A stretch of DNA of 12,564 nucleotides from Verrucomicrobiales bacterium. Lineage in GTDB: Bacteria > Verrucomicrobiota > Verrucomicrobiia > Verrucomicrobiales > DEV007. Shown here piece by piece: positions 22 through 7,212 of this stretch; within the stretch, counting starts at the first letter, position 1, and each line of letters opens with the position of its first letter. The notes beneath the pieces were generated by a model, which was not told the DNA's origin, made no database searches, and was given only the letters and a program-made list of their open reading frames with translations. The DNA is taken from positions 1 through 12,564 of the forward strand of contig NYVP01000176.1 in the NCBI GenBank assembly GCA_002684575.1, given 5' to 3'. Position numbers and translations under genes: made by a program.

Positions 22-3000
22 TTATTTCTTGTTAGTGCTTTGTAAAAAAGCTTTTCCATTTTTGTACAGATTCAGACGATTTTGAATGGTTTGCTTAAGT
101 TTTGAGGAATTTTTTAACTGAGAGATGGCCATTTCTGCCGATTTTGCTGCTTTCGTGAATTGACCGTTAGCCGCTTGAGCTGCAGCCAGTGTATCAAGCA
201 CTTGGGGAACTTTATTACCAGTATCTGCATTCAATTTTGTGGCGACGATCAACGCTTCTTCAGCATTTCTTAGGTCTTGGTTAGCTGATGTGGCAAGAAT
301 CCAAGCTAAATTGTTTCTGGCTGCATTGTTTGAAGGGTCGATGACTAGACCTTTTCTGTAATGATTGATAGCCGTCTCTCTCATTTGTTGCCTGTCCATT
401 TGTGTGGCAAAAGCAAAATATACAGAAGCAAGTTGCGATGATAATTGTTTTGAATCAGGCACAAGCTTGTTCGCTTTTTCAAAATGATTTATAGCTCCTC
501 TTAAATCACCGGCACTATACCAGTTTATGGCGTGTCTTCGGTGAATGCTGGCTTCGTGTTCTAATAAACGCTGAGTTGCCTTGGGGTTTTTGATAAGAGA
601 CCCTTCCAACTTTGCTGCTGCTTTGACTCTGGTAATAAATCCTTCGGATGATAATCGAAGATCTTTGATGATTTGCTCTACATTTACTGGACCCTTATAT
701 ATAACCGAAACATCACCATTTGGATCAATTAGAAAACTTGAAGGTATTGGTAATGGTTCATTAAGACCCACGCTTTGATCATGAATTCTTTGAAGTATTT
801 CCATTAACTGTTTGTTTGCAGAAATGGACGGAAACGGGAAATTCATTTTCTTAATGACATCTGATGGCTTCTTCGAATTATCATTCTGTGAGTCTAATTC
901 ATCGACGTTGACTGCTATCAGTTCCACTTCGTTATCTATGAGCGTTTTTTTATGGTCACGGAAGTGAGCCATTTCCTGTAGACATGGAGCACACCAGGTT
1001 GCCCATAGATTAATAAGTTGATGTGATTTATTTTTATTATTTTGTTTCTCTATTCCATTTTTTCTTAGGTTAATAGTTGGGCCCTTGAATAAGGTTATTG
1101 CAGGGATTCTCGCAACCTGTGAGGGAGGGGTTTTGAGACCAGGTGAACTGACCAGGTTGTTTTTTTCAGATTCTAATTTTACCTCTTCAGCGGTGGAGTT
1201 CTCCTGCCTTATGATATATTTTTTGTTTGGTAGTACATCTTCTATTTTGCTCACCGTGCCGTCTGTCCAACTGATTTTTATATTGATGGATTCAATGGTT
1301 TCATTCAAAGCGAATTGAATCCATTTACTTGATTGAGACAAAAATCCCTGACCCGCCCTTAAGGTTTGAATTTGTTTAAATTTCCCTGAATCTTTTCCAT
1401 TAATTATCTCAATTCTTGCACCAATTGCATCTTTGTTTACGGTTTTACCATTGCCTCTTAACCGCAATGAAATGAAGGAGTTAACCTTTTTGGTGTCGTT
1501 CCTCATTAGTCTAAGGCGTGGAGCGTTTCTGTTTGTGATCCACAAATCTAGATCCCCGTCATTATCCCAATCAGTTACACTAATGGCTCTGCCATCATCA
1601 GGAAAATCCAATCCACTGAGGCCAGAAATATCGGCAAATTTTCCATTGCCCATATTGATAAAAAAACAGTTTCTTTCGTTTCCACTGAATGACCTGCCGG
1701 CATCCATCATTCGAGAAAGAGCTGTTTGGCCTGAGTTTGAGGAAGATCTTTCGTTTGTGTTAATTCCGTCCGTAGTTTGAGCGACAACCTGTCGCCAAAA
1801 AAAGCTTCACAAATCACCACTTTCACTTTTTGATGTAAGATACCCGTTAGCTACCACTAGGTCTGGCAAGGTATCATTATTAAAATCGATGAAGTTCGAT
1901 CCCCATGCCCATCGTCCCATATTTACACCGGCTGATAGACTTGCATCTTGAAATTTTCCATTCACGTTTCTTAAAAGCGTATTACCTCGCGCGAACCTTC
2001 TGAATCTTTCACGGACAGATTGTTGAGTGGAGCTTTTAAATTGTTTTTGGTTAGTGATTCTATTCCCTGCTGCTGAAAACATATTTGAAATGTAGACGTC
2101 CATATTACCGTCCTTATCATAGTCTGCCCATGAAACTGACATGCCAGAAGCGCTATCCTCTGAATCCGTTTTTGAGGCTAGATCTGTAAATTTTCCTTTG
2201 TCATTATTGTAGAGATTGTTTCTTCCATAATCGTTGGCAACGTAAAGATCTTGATCGCCATCATTATCATAGTCTTCCCAAGATGCAGCAAAACTCCATC
2301 TAGAATTATTAACATTTAGCCCCACTTCACCAGTCACGTCTAAAAATGAAATCTTACCGATGCCTTTGGTAACGTTCTTATACATTGTATTCGATGCTCC
2401 ATTTTTAGCATCATGATAAACGAATTCATTGCTGTCGGTGCCAATTGAGTTTCCGTTATCCTCATTCACGTAAGCACATACGTACAGGTCTATTAGACCA
2501 TCATTGTCATAATCGGCCGCAGCTAAAGAGGAGGTTGACCAACTCGTTTTAAGAATAGCAGCAGGCTCAAATCTTTTTTCTTGGACATTCTCAGCGATTA
2601 CAACCATTCCATAGCAGGCAACGGCTAAATCTTGATCACCATCATTATCAAAGTCAGCAATGATTGAAGATCTTGAATCTTCTATCCAATCTATTCCCCA
2701 TTCTTTGGATGATTCCACCGCCTGACCATTTTTTTCCTGAATAAATAGCCTGTTGGGCAATCCGGGTTCTTGGCACAGAAAAAAATCATCAAGACCATCT
2801 CCATTAACATCTCCCATTGAAATGCCGGGCGTTCCAAATCGGTTGAGCATTGCTCGTACAGGCATTCGTGTTAACCAATGATTCATTCCGTAGGCGAGTT
2901 GTGTTTTATAACAAGAGTTTGACCCTATAACAGATTCGGTGATCTCTGTGAACAGAGGAGACTGGTTTTGCATGATAGCCTGCCTGAAAGAATTAACCGA

Positions 3001-3678
3001 GATGTCTAATATTTTAGTATCCTCATTAAGACCTTTCCAATTAATGGCCCAAACAGCATTTTTTTGAACGATTTTTTTCTCTGTCTTATATTTAATACTA
3101 AAAAGTGCTTTTGTATTAAAAGTTTGTTTATCGGTATTAACTTCGATACCAACAATTTTAAATTTCACGTAGCGTTCTTCAGGTGATGAGGTGCTTTGGG
3201 TTCTGACTAATTTGAGCTCTTGCTCGAGGTGTTGGCTTCCAGCTTTTTTACCGTTTAATTCAATTTCTCCTGACTGAATAAGCAAACGATCTTTTGAGAG
3301 TAGTGTCTCTAGATTTTTTGGAGATAGTCTATAAGATGAAAAATCATCCGTGATAATTTTTTTCAATGAACCATCAATAAAAAACAAGTCACTAAGTTTT
3401 TTTAGTTGTTTGTTAGCACGATTGGCTAAAACTTCCGTTTCCCATCCGTCTTCGGATGGATCGTCCAAGTCATTCCATTTTTGTTCAGACCCAACAATTG
3501 TAATGTTGGGTCTAGTATTAGCAGTAGAGGAATAATCAGGGGGTGTTTTTTTGGAACTGTCATCAGAGTGGTTTGTTTTTTTCTGGCAGTTCGTCAAAAA
3601 CAAAAAAAACAAGATCATAGGAAGAATTTTCTTCACCAATCTATAGAATGATAATTTTCTTTGTTTATTTGTAATCAA
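22..3678 (-). CDS. Selenocysteine-containing CRTAC1-family lipoprotein (FG-GAP/ASPIC-UnbV + thioredoxin + TPR), read through UGA at 1807-1809
   Basis: One 1218-residue frame with a single in-frame TGA at codon 624; standard decoding splits it into 623-aa and 562-aa pieces in the same frame. Residues 1-31 are a signal peptide with a basic start, a hydrophobic run and Cys31 in LTNC (Asn at -1 is atypical for a lipobox), so probably a lipid-anchored exported protein. Residues about 285-610 carry FG-GAP/VCBS calcium-type repeats (DVNGDGLDD, DFDNDGDQD, DYDNDGLID, DYDNDGDQD, DYDKDGNMD), continued after the UGA by DWDNDGDLD near 703-711. ASPIC/UnbV spans about 750-825. A TlpA-like thioredoxin domain has WCAPC at 895-899 and a probable cis-Pro in IPSSFLID near 979. 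TPR-like helices run from about 1050 to the end. The only possible start after the upstream stop is TTG at 3678; the ATG at codon 21 would remove the basic n-region. Its substrate and reaction are unknown. The alternative is a nonsense-mutated pseudogene. Confidence 0.85.
1776..1800 (-). promoter_or_regulatory. Bacterial SECIS-like stem-loop
   Basis: In the mRNA, five Watson-Crick pairs (GCGAC 1795-1791 with GUCGC 1785-1781) close a loop AGGUU (1790-1786). An A-U pair could reduce the loop to GGU. The stem extends outward with G1796-U1780, one mismatch, and UUU (1800-1798) with AAA (1778-1776). Sixteen bases separate the UGA from the loop. As I recall, bacterial SECIS rules call for a loop 16-37 nt after UGA, a G in the first two loop bases and an upper stem of at least 4 bp; all are met. 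The E. coli fdhF loop AGGUCU is nearly the same. The helix lies inside the codons for WRQVVA. Confidence 0.8.
1807..1809 (-). other. In-frame UGA, predicted selenocysteine codon (Sec624)
   Basis: The TGA lies between codons for GDL and SFFWRQVVAQ, and the frame is identical on both sides (1809 to 1710 is exactly 33 codons). The 32 residues after it, up to the next ATG, read as authentic family sequence rather than noise, so they appear to be under coding constraint. TGA acts as a true stop for the PSD1 gene at 5795-5797, and tryptophan is encoded by TGG throughout, so whole-code reassignment is unlikely. A SECIS-like hairpin begins ten bases downstream. The selA, selB, selC and selD genes required for decoding are not in this window. 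Confidence 0.82.
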
Positions 3679-3692
3679 CTTAAAATTAGTAT

Positions 3693-3721
3693 CTTATATT
3701 TACTCTACGAGCATAAGGCAA
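3693..3721 (-). promoter_or_regulatory. Candidate sigma-70-type promoter of the CRTAC1-family gene
   Basis: Minus-strand TTGCCT (3721-3716), 17 bp, then TATAAG (3698-3693); these match the -35 and -10 consensus at 4/6 and 5/6. Initiation would fall near 3686, only about 7 bases before the TTG start, with no Shine-Dalgarno. It faces the divergent PSD1 promoter across a 100-bp shared region. Confidence 0.45.
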
Positions 3722-3741
3722 TAATCTGAAATGGAAAATCC

Positions 3742-3770
3742 TTAACGCGCTTCTTTATCCGCTATAAAAT
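3742..3770 (+). promoter_or_regulatory. Candidate promoter of the PSD1/DUF1501 operon
   Basis: TTAACG (3742-3747), 17 bp, then TAAAAT (3765-3770), matching consensus at 4/6 and 5/6. The predicted start site is near 3777, with the ATG at 3779, so the transcript could be leaderless. An in-frame TAA immediately precedes the ATG and there is no Shine-Dalgarno. AT-rich background makes chance matches common. Confidence 0.4.
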
Positions 3771-3778
3771 AATCTTAA

Positions 3779-5797
3779 ATGAGGGGTATCTCCAGACACT
3801 TGAATTGTATCTTAGCCTGTAAGCTTGGAGTGCTTCATTTTTTGTTCAGTGGATATGAAATATTAGCTAAAGACAAAAAAATTGAACATTGGACATATAT
3901 TAAACCTATCAAGGCTAAGGTTCCTGAAAATTCTCGATGGGGGTATAATGAAATTGATTTTTTCATTATAGATAAAATGAAAAGTGTTGGGCTGTCTCCT
4001 CAACAAGAAGCTCCCAGAGAAGAATGGTTAAGAAGAGCTAGTTTTGATATTACCGGTCTCCCTCCAAGCCTTAATGAGATTGACTTATTTTTAAAAGATG
4101 ATTCCGAGGAAGCGTATAATAAGGCGGTTAAAAGATTATTAAGTTCTAGCAAATACGGCGAACGAATGGCTGCCTGGTGGTTAGATGGTGCGAGATATGG
4201 TGACAGTCATGGATATGATAATGATCTTGAGAATAGTCAGTGGCCCTGGAGGAACTGGGTCATCGAATCATTTAATTCAAATAAACCCTTTGATGTTTTC
4301 ACTGTTGAGCAATTAGCAGGTGATCTATTGCCAAATCCCTCTAATGATCAGATGATAGCGACTGGATTTAATAGAAATCATAGGATACAGACCGAGGGTG
4401 GTGCAATTGATGAGGAGTGGAGGACAGAATATGTCATTGATAGGGTTGAAACAATGGGAACGGTTTGGATGGGGCTGACTTTGAGCTGTGCACGCTGTCA
4501 TGATCATAAATACGATCCGATAACTCAAAGAGAGTTTTATCAACTTTTTGCCTTTTTTAATAATCTCGATGAAAAAGGTTTTATTAATAATTTAAGAGGT
4601 AGTGCTGAGCCGAGAATTCGTTATAAGAAAAAAGAATTTGATCTAAAGGTTTCACAAATTAAAAAGGATTACCCTGAAAAGTCCGATCAGGATCAACAGA
4701 TTTCAAAAATTGAACCGTTCTATCCTCATGTGATGGTTATGAGGGAGATGCCCAAAAAGAGGAAAGCATTTATTCTGGATGGTGGGCAATACGATGCCAT
4801 TGGTGAAGAGGTTTTACCTGGTTTGCCTTCTTCACTATCTTCAGTATTCGACGAATCATTAATGAACCGTATGACGCTTGCAAAATGGTTAGTAGATGGT
4901 GAGCATCCATTAACTTCCCGTGTAATAGTTAATAGGATTTGGGCTCTCTTTTTTGGGACTGGAATTATTTCAAGCACTGAAAACCTTGGGGTGCGGACAA
5001 GTCCTCCTTCGCATCCAAAATTATTAGACTGGCTTGCAGTCGATTTTGCGGAAAATGGTTGGAATATCAAAAGGCTCGTTGAGCAAATAATAACAAGCTC
5101 TGCTTATCGACAAAAGCACGCAGTTGATGCCGAGAGATTAAAAATTGATCCTGATAACCGATTGATTAGTCGCGGGCCAAGGTTGCGACTTGAATCAGAG
5201 ATGATCCGAGACCAAGCCCTATTTGTTTCAGGGCTTTTAGTCGATAAGATTGGAGGCCCGAGTTATTGGGTGTATCAGCCAGTAGGGTTATGGAGAGATA
5301 TTGAAAAGCGTGGGAAATTTGAACAGGACCACGGTGACAAATTATATCGAAGGAGTCTTTACTCTAGAATTCGCAGGACTGTGCCTAATCCGAGTATGGC
5401 GATATTTGATATGCCTAGTCGTGAAGTTTGTAGTGTAATAAGATCAAAATCAAATACACCCCTACAGGCGTTGTCTTTACTTAATAGCGTAACCCACGTA
5501 GAAGCTGCGAAGAAATTTGCGGAAAGAATGCTGCTGATTGAAGGTGAGCTTAAAGATAAAATACGTTGGGGATTTCGTAGCGTTACTTCGAGACTGCCAG
5601 ATGACACTGAGCTTGAATTATTGTTAAAAGGCTATCAAAGAAGATTGGATTATTATAAGACTAATAGTGATCAGTCAAATGCTCTCCTTGGAGTGGGCGA
5701 ATCAAAGGTTTCGTCATTATTAAACCCTGATGAACTGGCTTCAATGACGACTGTGGCTAATGTTCTACTAAACTTAGACGAGGTGATTAATAAATGA
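3779..5797 (+). CDS. Secreted PSD1-type protein (DUF1549 + DUF1553) with a cytochrome c heme motif
   Basis: 672 residues. An N-terminal signal peptide (about 1-30; basic start, hydrophobic core ending near ILA) predicts export. DUF1549 spans roughly residues 55-265 (RRASFDITGLPP near 85-96, AAWWLDGARYGDSHGYDND near 131-149). SCARCH at 236-241 is a CxxCH covalent heme-attachment motif followed by DHKYDPI. DUF1553 spans roughly 365-620 (HPLTSRVIVNRIWALFFG, the SAYRQ motif at 441-445, and late PSREVCSVIRSKSNTPLQALSLLN). Family members are often longer, with an extra N-terminal cytochrome and a LamG-like insert; both are absent here. No enzymatic activity is firmly known; roles in electron transfer or extracellular polysaccharide use are proposed from genomic context. 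The TGA stop overlaps the DUF1501 ATG, so the two are almost certainly made together. Start choice rests on the signal peptide and the stop codon just upstream. Confidence 0.93.
   Translation: MRGISRHLNCILACKLGVLHFLFSGYEILAKDKKIEHWTYIKPIKAKVPENSRWGYNEIDFFIIDKMKSVGLSPQQEAPREEWLRRASFDITGLPPSLNEIDLFLKDDSEEAYNKAVKRLLSSSKYGERMAAWWLDGARYGDSHGYDNDLENSQWPWRNWVIESFNSNKPFDVFTVEQLAGDLLPNPSNDQMIATGFNRNHRIQTEGGAIDEEWRTEYVIDRVETMGTVWMGLTLSCARCHDHKYDPITQREFYQLFAFFNNLDEKGFINNLRGSAEPRIRYKKKEFDLKVSQIKKDYPEKSDQDQQISKIEPFYPHVMVMREMPKKRKAFILDGGQYDAIGEEVLPGLPSSLSSVFDESLMNRMTLAKWLVDGEHPLTSRVIVNRIWALFFGTGIISSTENLGVRTSPPSHPKLLDWLAVDFAENGWNIKRLVEQIITSSAYRQKHAVDAERLKIDPDNRLISRGPRLRLESEMIRDQALFVSGLLVDKIGGPSYWVYQPVGLWRDIEKRGKFEQDHGDKLYRRSLYSRIRRTVPNPSMAIFDMPSREVCSVIRSKSNTPLQALSLLNSVTHVEAAKKFAERMLLIEGELKDKIRWGFRSVTSRLPDDTELELLLKGYQRRLDYYKTNSDQSNALLGVGESKVSSLLNPDELASMTTVANVLLNLDEVINK
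5781..5786 (+). promoter_or_regulatory. Strong Shine-Dalgarno for the DUF1501 gene
   Basis: AGGTGA lies 7 bases before the ATG at 5794, inside the last codons of the PSD1 gene. It fixes the DUF1501 start and shows that the host's ribosomes use an ordinary anti-Shine-Dalgarno, in contrast to the promoter-proximal genes in this window that lack one. Confidence 0.7.
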
Positions 5798-7212
5798 TTG
5801 AAGAATTTAGATCCCTAGACCATTTAAACCGAAGAACCTTCCTATCTGGTTCTGCCCATGGAATTGGTTTAACAGCTTTGGGAAGTCTCTTTTCCAATGA
5901 CCTTAACGGGGCTTTGCATTTGGATCATATCGCTAGAGCCAAACGAGTTATTTATCTTTTTCAATCTGGAGGCCCGTCCCAAATTGATTTGTTTGACCCT
6001 AAAGAAAATCTAGAAAAGCAACGTGGTAAGGAATTGCCTGAGTCAGTGCGAATGGGGCAACGAATAACGACGATGACATCGACTCAAAAATCATTGCCGG
6101 TTCATCCAACCAATTATTCATTCAAAAAATATGGACAGAGCGGAACCTCATTTAGTGAATTAATTCCAAATATTGGCAGTATGTCTGATGATATATGTCT
6201 TATCAGATCATTACATACAGAGGCTATCAATCATGATCCAGCGATTACATTTTTCCAAACCGGTTCTCAACTAGCCGGTCGGCCTAGTATAGGATCTTGG
6301 ATATCATATGGATTAGGATCGGAAAATAATAACCTTCCAAGTTATATTGTGCTTACTTCTCGGGGAGGATCATCTGATGCTCAACCTCTCTATAGTCGGT
6401 TATGGGCATCTGGTTTTTTGCCAACTGAGAATTCAGGAGTAAAACTAAGAAGCTCGGGAGATCCAGTACATTATTTGTCTAACCCTCCCGGGATTAGTAA
6501 CTCTATGCGAAGAGATATTTTAGATGATCTGAAAGGATTAAATGAAAAACAATCTTCGGTTATTGGAGACCCTGAGATTAATTCAAGAATATCACAATAT
6601 GAAATGGCTTTTAGAATGCAGACTAGCGTTCCTGAATTAGTTCAGATTTCTGATGAACCTGAAAGTGTTCTGAATCTTTATGGTTCTGATGTTAAGCGGC
6701 CTGGATCCTATGCGGCTAATTGTTTGTTGGCAAGAAGGTTGGCTGAGAGAGGGGTAAATTTCATTCAGTTATTCCATATGGGATGGGATCATCATTTTAA
6801 GCTTTCAGAAAACCTTCCACGCCAGTGCAAAGATACAGATAAGCCCACTGCCGGATTAATAGCAGACCTTAAACAACGAGGTCTTCTTGAAGATACTCTA
6901 ATTATTTGGGGGGGGGAGTTTGGGCGAACTGTTTATGCACAATCGCCAGAAAAAAATGGGGGTAGGGACCATCACCCGAAATGCTTTACCATGATGATGG
7001 CTGGTGGTGGAGTCAAGGGAGGATATGTCCATGGAGAAACTGATGATTATTGTTATAACATCACAAAAGATCCAGTTCATGTTCATGATTTAAATGCAAC
7101 AATAATGCATCTCATGGGTGTTAATCATGAAGAGTTTACATTCAATTTTCAGGGACGAGATTATCGCCTGACCGATGTTCACGGAAGGATTGTAAACAAA
7201 ATTATCGCCTAA
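5794..7212 (+). CDS. DUF1501 protein, alkaline-phosphatase/sulfatase-fold family, Tat-type signal
   Basis: 472 residues. LNRRTFLSGS at 11-20 followed by a short hydrophobic stretch is a twin-arginine-like export signal. Family signatures are all visible: SGGPSQIDLFDPK near 58-70, SLHTEAINHDPA near 139-150, GWDHH at 330-334, WGGEFGRT near 372-379 and GRDHHPK near 390-396. The Asp, Glu and His residues in these blocks resemble the metal-binding sites of the alkaline phosphatase superfamily, but the reaction is not established for DUF1501. It overlaps the PSD1 stop by four bases (ATGA), has a strong Shine-Dalgarno and ends in TAA. Planctomycete and verrucomicrobial genomes often carry this gene pair, suggesting the products act together outside the cytoplasm. 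The codons for the WGGE motif form a run of nine G. Confidence 0.93.
   Translation: MIEEFRSLDHLNRRTFLSGSAHGIGLTALGSLFSNDLNGALHLDHIARAKRVIYLFQSGGPSQIDLFDPKENLEKQRGKELPESVRMGQRITTMTSTQKSLPVHPTNYSFKKYGQSGTSFSELIPNIGSMSDDICLIRSLHTEAINHDPAITFFQTGSQLAGRPSIGSWISYGLGSENNNLPSYIVLTSRGGSSDAQPLYSRLWASGFLPTENSGVKLRSSGDPVHYLSNPPGISNSMRRDILDDLKGLNEKQSSVIGDPEINSRISQYEMAFRMQTSVPELVQISDEPESVLNLYGSDVKRPGSYAANCLLARRLAERGVNFIQLFHMGWDHHFKLSENLPRQCKDTDKPTAGLIADLKQRGLLEDTLIIWGGEFGRTVYAQSPEKNGGRDHHPKCFTMMMAGGGVKGGYVHGETDDYCYNITKDPVHVHDLNATIMHLMGVNHEEFTFNFQGRDYRLTDVHGRIVNKIIA

Follow-up and report, generated by a model that had tools for sequence, protein, structure and literature searches.

In bacteria, selenocysteine (Sec) is inserted at UGA codons with a hairpin, the SECIS element, that lies shortly downstream of the UGA and has a G at the start of its loop. 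TlpA and ResA are thioredoxin-like proteins with roles in disulfide or haem maturation. Here, we analysed a stretch of 12,564 nucleotides from the draft genome of a Verrucomicrobiales bacterium (GCA_002684575.1, contig NYVP01000176.1; in the following, the window). It contains a gene in which, judging from sequence comparisons, an in-frame UGA at codon 624 very likely encodes Sec.

The gene resembles known systems in different parts. Its C-terminal WCAPC domain is alike to TlpA and ResA in sequence and fold; here, however, the domain is fused to a propeller with a predicted Sec. The NCBIfam cut-offs for ResA and TlpA are not reached (54.2 vs 170 bits and 48.9 vs 230 bits, respectively). The structure of mouse CRTAC1 (PDB 9etn, a chain of 551 residues) matches residues 181-768 of our predicted model only and does not cover the thioredoxin-like part; in the phmmer alignment, which is weak there, CRTAC1 has a gap beside the Sec site. 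Cys-type homologues (L059 from the same genome as the window, L051-L058 and L171) carry a Cys at the Sec position within the motif D[YF]C-xxFWC. They have another Cys five residues further along; at that place, 28 of the 29 Sec forms in our family alignment (A1) have an Arg. Unlike most Sec forms, the Cys-type homologues have neither the thioredoxin-like domain (0/10) nor the hairpin signal (0/9).

A 2026 inventory (PMC13188914) gives a stated number of 119 prokaryotic selenoprotein families or subfamilies in its Table 1, and we covered the families of Haft and Tolstoy 2025 as they are given there. Among the entries of that table we found no FG-GAP, UnbV or CRTAC1 family. The protein matched 21 NCBIfam models, mostly in its thioredoxin and TPR parts, and none over the cut-off. 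In the literature that we searched, we found no selenoprotein with UnbV, FG-GAP, CRTAC1 or VCBS; PMC4807772 describes selenoprotein candidates in two Planctomycetes, and its Table S9 could contain such genes. The terms looked for did not occur in PMC9312934. As far as Table 1 of the inventory, NCBIfam and this literature reach, the protein family is thus known and its Sec form was not found in print, which agrees with an earlier note on this DNA that had called the gene an undescribed selenoprotein.

The gene and its predicted product

The earlier note had described two collinear frames on the minus strand that are separated by one TGA and 32 sense codons, and the coordinates of the open reading frames (ORFs) confirm this. 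The upstream ORF (3678-1807) begins with TTG and has 623 codons before the TGA at 1809-1807. The downstream ORF (1710-22) is in the same frame, from an ATG at 1710 to a TAA at 22, and between the TGA and this ATG there are 32 sense codons. Reading through the TGA results in a frame of 1218 residues, where the TGA is codon 624 in the context GDL-U-SFFWRQVV. The start codon is uncertain. Among the 20 closest database relatives of the N-terminal half, with identities of 91-95%, 17 have a length of 603-604 aa, as would be expected if translation began at an ATG near codon 21. Thus, from the claim of a 1218-aa product with Sec at codon 624, the read-through frame stands and the length becomes a range (see the table).

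Table. Features of the read-through gene and its neighbours in the window
Feature	Position	Strand	Content or evidence
Whole read-through gene	22..3678	-	FG-GAP beta-propeller, UnbV_ASPIC, TlpA/ResA-like thioredoxin domain and TPR; ~1198-1218 aa
TGA, predicted Sec codon 624 (numbered from TTG at 3678)	1807..1809	-	Conservation, database ends
Propeller and ASPIC core, residues ~270-830, CRTAC1 fold (predicted model)	1189..2871	-	
TlpA/ResA-like thioredoxin domain, residues ~871-999, WCAPC, Cys 896 and Cys 899	682..1068	-	Pfam AhpC-TSA, Redoxin
SECIS-like hairpin core	1781..1795	-	6-bp stem 1790-1795 with 1781-1786, loop GGU 1787-1789
DUF1549/DUF1553 gene (3779-5797) and DUF1501 gene (5794-7212)	3779..7212	+	Divergent neighbours

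Beyond the TGA, the Pfam matches comprise UnbV_ASPIC, AhpC-TSA/Redoxin, TPRs and one more FG-GAP match. Across the members of alignment A1, FG-GAP was found in 33/33 and UnbV_ASPIC in 32/33. The PDB matches of the thioredoxin-like domain include TlpA and ResA. The structure was predicted with a pLDDT of 88.5 and a pTM of 0.91, and in this model the fold of the window protein is that of the CRTAC1 propeller. Between strands of the propeller the model has an insertion with a helix, and the predicted Sec is close to the N-terminal end of this helix (mean pLDDT of 83 for the block of ten). The hydrophobic N-terminus with Cys 31, which is kept in 24 of the 29 Sec forms of A1, suggests that the protein is exported as a lipoprotein.

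The neighbouring DUF1549/DUF1553 and DUF1501 pair also adjoins a paralogue in the same genome (contig C146, L218:13243-16459). There, the pair lies on the same strand directly downstream of the paralogue, whereas it is divergent from the Sec gene in the window.

The thioredoxin-like domain and the role of the predicted selenocysteine

When comparing Sec forms to Cys forms, we found the thioredoxin-like domain in 88 of the 93 assessable Sec forms (97 examined) and in none of the ten Cys forms. This count is based on a profile built from the family, which replaced an over-strict motif count (48/76), and it leaves out L176 and L179 (TGA) as well as L173, L181 and L184 (Cys, with a different local motif). 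The profile matches in all 88 Sec forms that extend for 330 aa or more beyond the site (88/88), and both CxxC cysteines are present in 87 of the 88 Sec forms with the domain. Five apparently complete Sec forms are without it (L047, L064, L065, L067 and L070). Cys 671 is present in 63/88 and missing in 25/88. In L073 (G000, contig C39), a Sec paralogue from the same genome as the window, Asp and Ser replace both CxxC cysteines.

The near restriction of the domain to Sec forms leads us to infer a redox role, in which Sec is recycled by the fused TlpA/ResA-like domain. Taken as a whole, it seems probable to us that the TGA is decoded as Sec with the help of SelB and a predicted SECIS, and that this Sec is the redox centre of a predicted exported CRTAC1-like propeller with its own recycling domain. 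In such a mechanism, SelB would insert Sec at the predicted SECIS hairpin just downstream of the TGA, and the Sec selenolate would then attack an oxidised or electrophilic substrate. A selenenyl-sulfide would form, perhaps with Cys 671, and would be reduced by the WCAPC thioredoxin-like domain.

Alternatively, Sec might be inserted but act as a metal ligand or as a structural or substrate-binding residue instead of a redox catalyst, with the thioredoxin-like domain serving otherwise, e.g., in disulfide or haem maturation as in TlpA and ResA. The position of the site would fit such a role, as it is in the propeller insertion, outside the thioredoxin-like domain, and neither a UxxC nor a CxxU motif was found at the Sec site; the five apparently complete Sec forms without the domain would fit it as well. 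However, the distribution of the fused domain over Sec and Cys forms, the retention of both CxxC cysteines and the modelled position of Sec close to the N-terminal end of a helix all argue against it, and we consider a non-redox Sec unlikely, though worth keeping in mind.

If Sec is indeed the redox centre, this would be a new selenoprotein family that is built on a beta-propeller. It would provide a reason for the use of Sec in this group, where one genome has ten such genes and a selD that contains a TGA itself. It would also give bacterial CRTAC1/ASPIC proteins a testable function, namely thiol/selenol redox chemistry, probably outside the cytoplasm.

Codon 624 in related genes

We used the read-through protein as a query against 114 relative genomes and scored up to six candidates per genome. 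We found matches at 1e-30 in 38 of these genomes, and most of the matches listed contain exactly one TGA. From this search 30 loci (the window is L018) were aligned with 60 further loci. In these 90 loci, window included, codon 624 is TGA in 76, Cys in nine, Pro in four and Arg in one; TAA or TAG was found in none. All loci whose score against the query exceeds 180 bits have TGA, and Cys, Pro or Arg is found in distant relatives only. The Cys forms share the motif DYC[ST]xFWCHD, and one of them (L059) is in the same genome as the window. The earlier note had suggested that homologues carry Cys or another residue between DL and SFFWRQ and had proposed an alignment to look for Cys or UGA at this site. 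The suggestion was borne out by the nine Cys loci next to the 76 with TGA; the other five, all distant, have Pro or Arg.

The surroundings of the site are also conserved. In the 76 TGA genes, the preceding codon is TTG in 65 and the following codon is AGY in 75. The pattern D-L-TGA-[S]-xxx-W-R occurs at five places in the draft genome of the window, all of them belonging to the family and having TGA at this codon, and at ten places in the relative G008, where all ten were confirmed as TGA family members; in other genomes, chance matches contribute to the counts. Two divergent loci (L047 and L179) read DG-U-[TR]-C-x-W, that is, a U-x-C motif in place of DLUS.

Database proteins present the same picture from the annotation side. 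The best 120 of 7647 relatives of the N-terminal half, mostly from one close clade with 74-95% identity, all end exactly at ...SGDL, at the TGA. This is in line with the earlier note, which had expected standard gene callers to report two genes or a pseudogene. Most N-terminal halves among the matches listed are nameless and the few with a name are called FG-GAP or VCBS repeat protein; the C-terminal halves among the matches listed are named ASPIC/UnbV, thiol-disulfide isomerase/thioredoxin, TPR or hypothetical protein. Neither half is called a selenoprotein among the matches listed. Since the UGA very likely encodes Sec, the catalogues hold a protein that is cut in two and appear to miss a likely selenium redox family. 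If this is true, the split gene calls could be corrected across many metagenomes.

The TGA might instead be an ordinary stop, and the gene either a pseudogene or two genes whose products act as separate proteins. A mechanical listing does return two ORFs, and the C-terminal half has a possible ATG at 1710. Yet the TGA and the family sequence beyond it are conserved in relatives with ~32-91% identity and across loci that are filed under four phyla, the Cys homologues run straight through the site, and neither TAA nor TAG occurs at it in the 90 loci. The earlier note had named an isolated mutation among close relatives as a sign against Sec; we looked for it and found TGA in every locus above 180 bits and likewise, judging by where they end, in the best 120 of 7647 N-terminal relatives. 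We therefore regard an ordinary stop as very improbable.

To see how far the family extends, we collected 80 loci from named genomes. The site is readable in 36 of these, with TGA in 23, Cys in four and another residue or a gap in nine; the 44 loci that have no alignment at the site were left out. Taxonomic labels are available for 22 of the 23 TGA loci. They comprise Verrucomicrobiota groups (Roseibacillus, Akkermansiaceae, Verrucomicrobiales), Planctomycetota groups (L138-L140, L147, L153, L176 and L179), Acidobacteria (L150 and L152), Gemmatimonadetes (L151) and BD2-11 (L155). As all named-genome TGA loci are metagenome-assembled, the phylum labels may err. In a sample of 288 genomes drawn evenly from the phylum, with two candidates scored per genome, the genome of the window was the only one with a 1e-40 match to the query protein (P0001). 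In the same sample selA was found in 17 genomes, and the other 16 of these had no family match at 1e-40. Rather than being phylum-wide, the family is thus concentrated close to the window's own family.

Genomes with the family contain several copies, with ten in G008. These copies could be part of a large superfamily of exported selenoenzymes that has gone unrecognised: CRTAC1-type propellers with a catalytic Sec in an insertion at a helix start and mostly their own TlpA-like recycler, which would span at least four phyla and reach ten copies in one genome. We see this wider reading as evenly poised. If true, a propeller, and not a thioredoxin fold, would be a main selenium user of these bacteria.

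The downstream hairpin and the selenocysteine machinery

In the window, the loop of the hairpin begins 17 nt downstream of the TGA. When a 58-nt piece of the window was simply folded, the result was unremarkable (z of -0.54; 56 of 200 dinucleotide shuffles are as stable). When the 21 nt from TGG are compared to 300 synonymous recodings, the folding energy is -8.7 kcal/mol vs a mean of -3.2 kcal/mol (P 0.007). The same recoding test (P<=0.05) is passed by 62 of the 76 TGA genes and failed by 14, while none of the nine Cys genes passes; in control windows further on, 2/75 and 4/76 pass.

Covariation was estimated for 80 of 99 TGA sequences, where the 19 left out are identical 33-mers or contain N. 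Over a 5-bp stem, 81.8% of the cells are paired vs 73.8% in shuffled alignments. The unpaired cells come partly from genes whose stem closes two bases earlier, including the window's. The covariation score is 0.236 vs 0.104 when shuffled (0/500 shuffles as high). Slid partners score 0.059-0.081, a comparison that favours the tested stem because it was drawn from the same sequences. Two weaker measures are the pairs changed on both sides (four, reached in 86/500 shuffles) and the further pair types (ten, reached in 15/500 shuffles). The most telling pair joins base 3 of the Arg codon to base 1 of the ninth codon after the TGA, with the counts G-U 26, A-U 18, G-C 11, C-G 8, U-A 2, U-G 1 and other 14.

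A comparable arrangement is present in selD, which belongs to a different protein family. In the genome of the window and in G008, which this comparison covers (the selD of G056, L226, was left out), selD has an in-frame TGA followed by a hairpin whose GGUC loop starts at the same position as in the window gene, 17 nt on. The hairpin that the earlier note had placed just downstream of the TGA thus has the expected spacing, loop and covariation, though no Rfam SECIS model matches in the window or in 1700-1860. As the hairpin accompanies the TGA forms, it also argues against an ordinary stop. Overall, the decoding looks like canonical bacterial Sec insertion.

The draft genome (2.79 Mb in 188 contigs, 81.6% complete) passes the curated cut-offs for selA (435 bits), selB (335 bits) and selD (357 bits), and the TGA of its selD lies in SKTCGUAAK. 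We did not find selC (tRNA-Sec) in this 81.6%-complete draft; eight matches under the cut-off are ordinary tRNAs according to ARAGORN. The Sec genes whose presence in the source genome had been proposed as a check are therefore there for selA, selB and selD, and missing from the draft for selC. Among the 114 relatives, selC is over the cut-off in 43, including G003, G006, G007 and G008 from the same genus.

To compare genomes with and without TGA members, we used 32 TGA-member genomes, each read at codon 624 (G063 is a borderline member). A selA match is found in 29 of these vs 27 of the 82 others (Fisher 1.4e-8, not corrected for kinship). Of the 29 matches, 26 are over the cut-off and three are partial and under it; the three TGA-member genomes without a match are 53-59% complete. 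For selC, the numbers are 20/32 vs 23/82 (Fisher 0.001). We found selD in nine of 12 chosen genomes, and the three without it (G050, G096 and G111) gave non-TGA homologues only. In two genomes that gave Cys forms only (G084 and G102), selA is present and selD lacks a TGA.

It is also conceivable that, owing to a suppressor or an altered genetic code, the UGA is read as another amino acid, e.g., Trp or Cys, and the missing selC in the draft would be in line with this. Against it, TGA ends ORF 3779-5797 of the window (one of eight ORF ends checked), which bears out the earlier note, where TGA had been taken as a normal stop codon in the rest of the window. Furthermore, selA, selB and selD are present, the hairpin is tied to the TGA forms, and the non-TGA homologues have Cys (nine), Pro (four) or Arg (one), never Trp. 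We consider this reading slightly less probable still than an ordinary stop. An error in this one contig has a negligible probability, even though the draft is fragmented, because the same TGA is found in 75 other loci, making 76/90, and the best 120 of 7647 relatives are truncated at the same point; for practical purposes, this excludes chance or read error. Based on conservation, the pairing with Cys, the hairpin and the machinery, we reject an ordinary stop, a pseudogene, split genes, a read error and another residue as working explanations.

Lastly, we note several arrangements of Sec genes in relatives. In G056 (contig C52, 217510-249291), selC, selA, a TGA family member and a selD that contains a TGA are all found within 32 kb of one another. 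On contig C73 of G049 (119883-120679), there are two tRNA-Sec matches over the cut-off, ~700 bases apart. Contig C61 of G033 carries a partial selA and a Cys-type homologue, and at L216 (G039:C500) a Cys-form gene (4839-7136) adjoins selA (~2787-4112).
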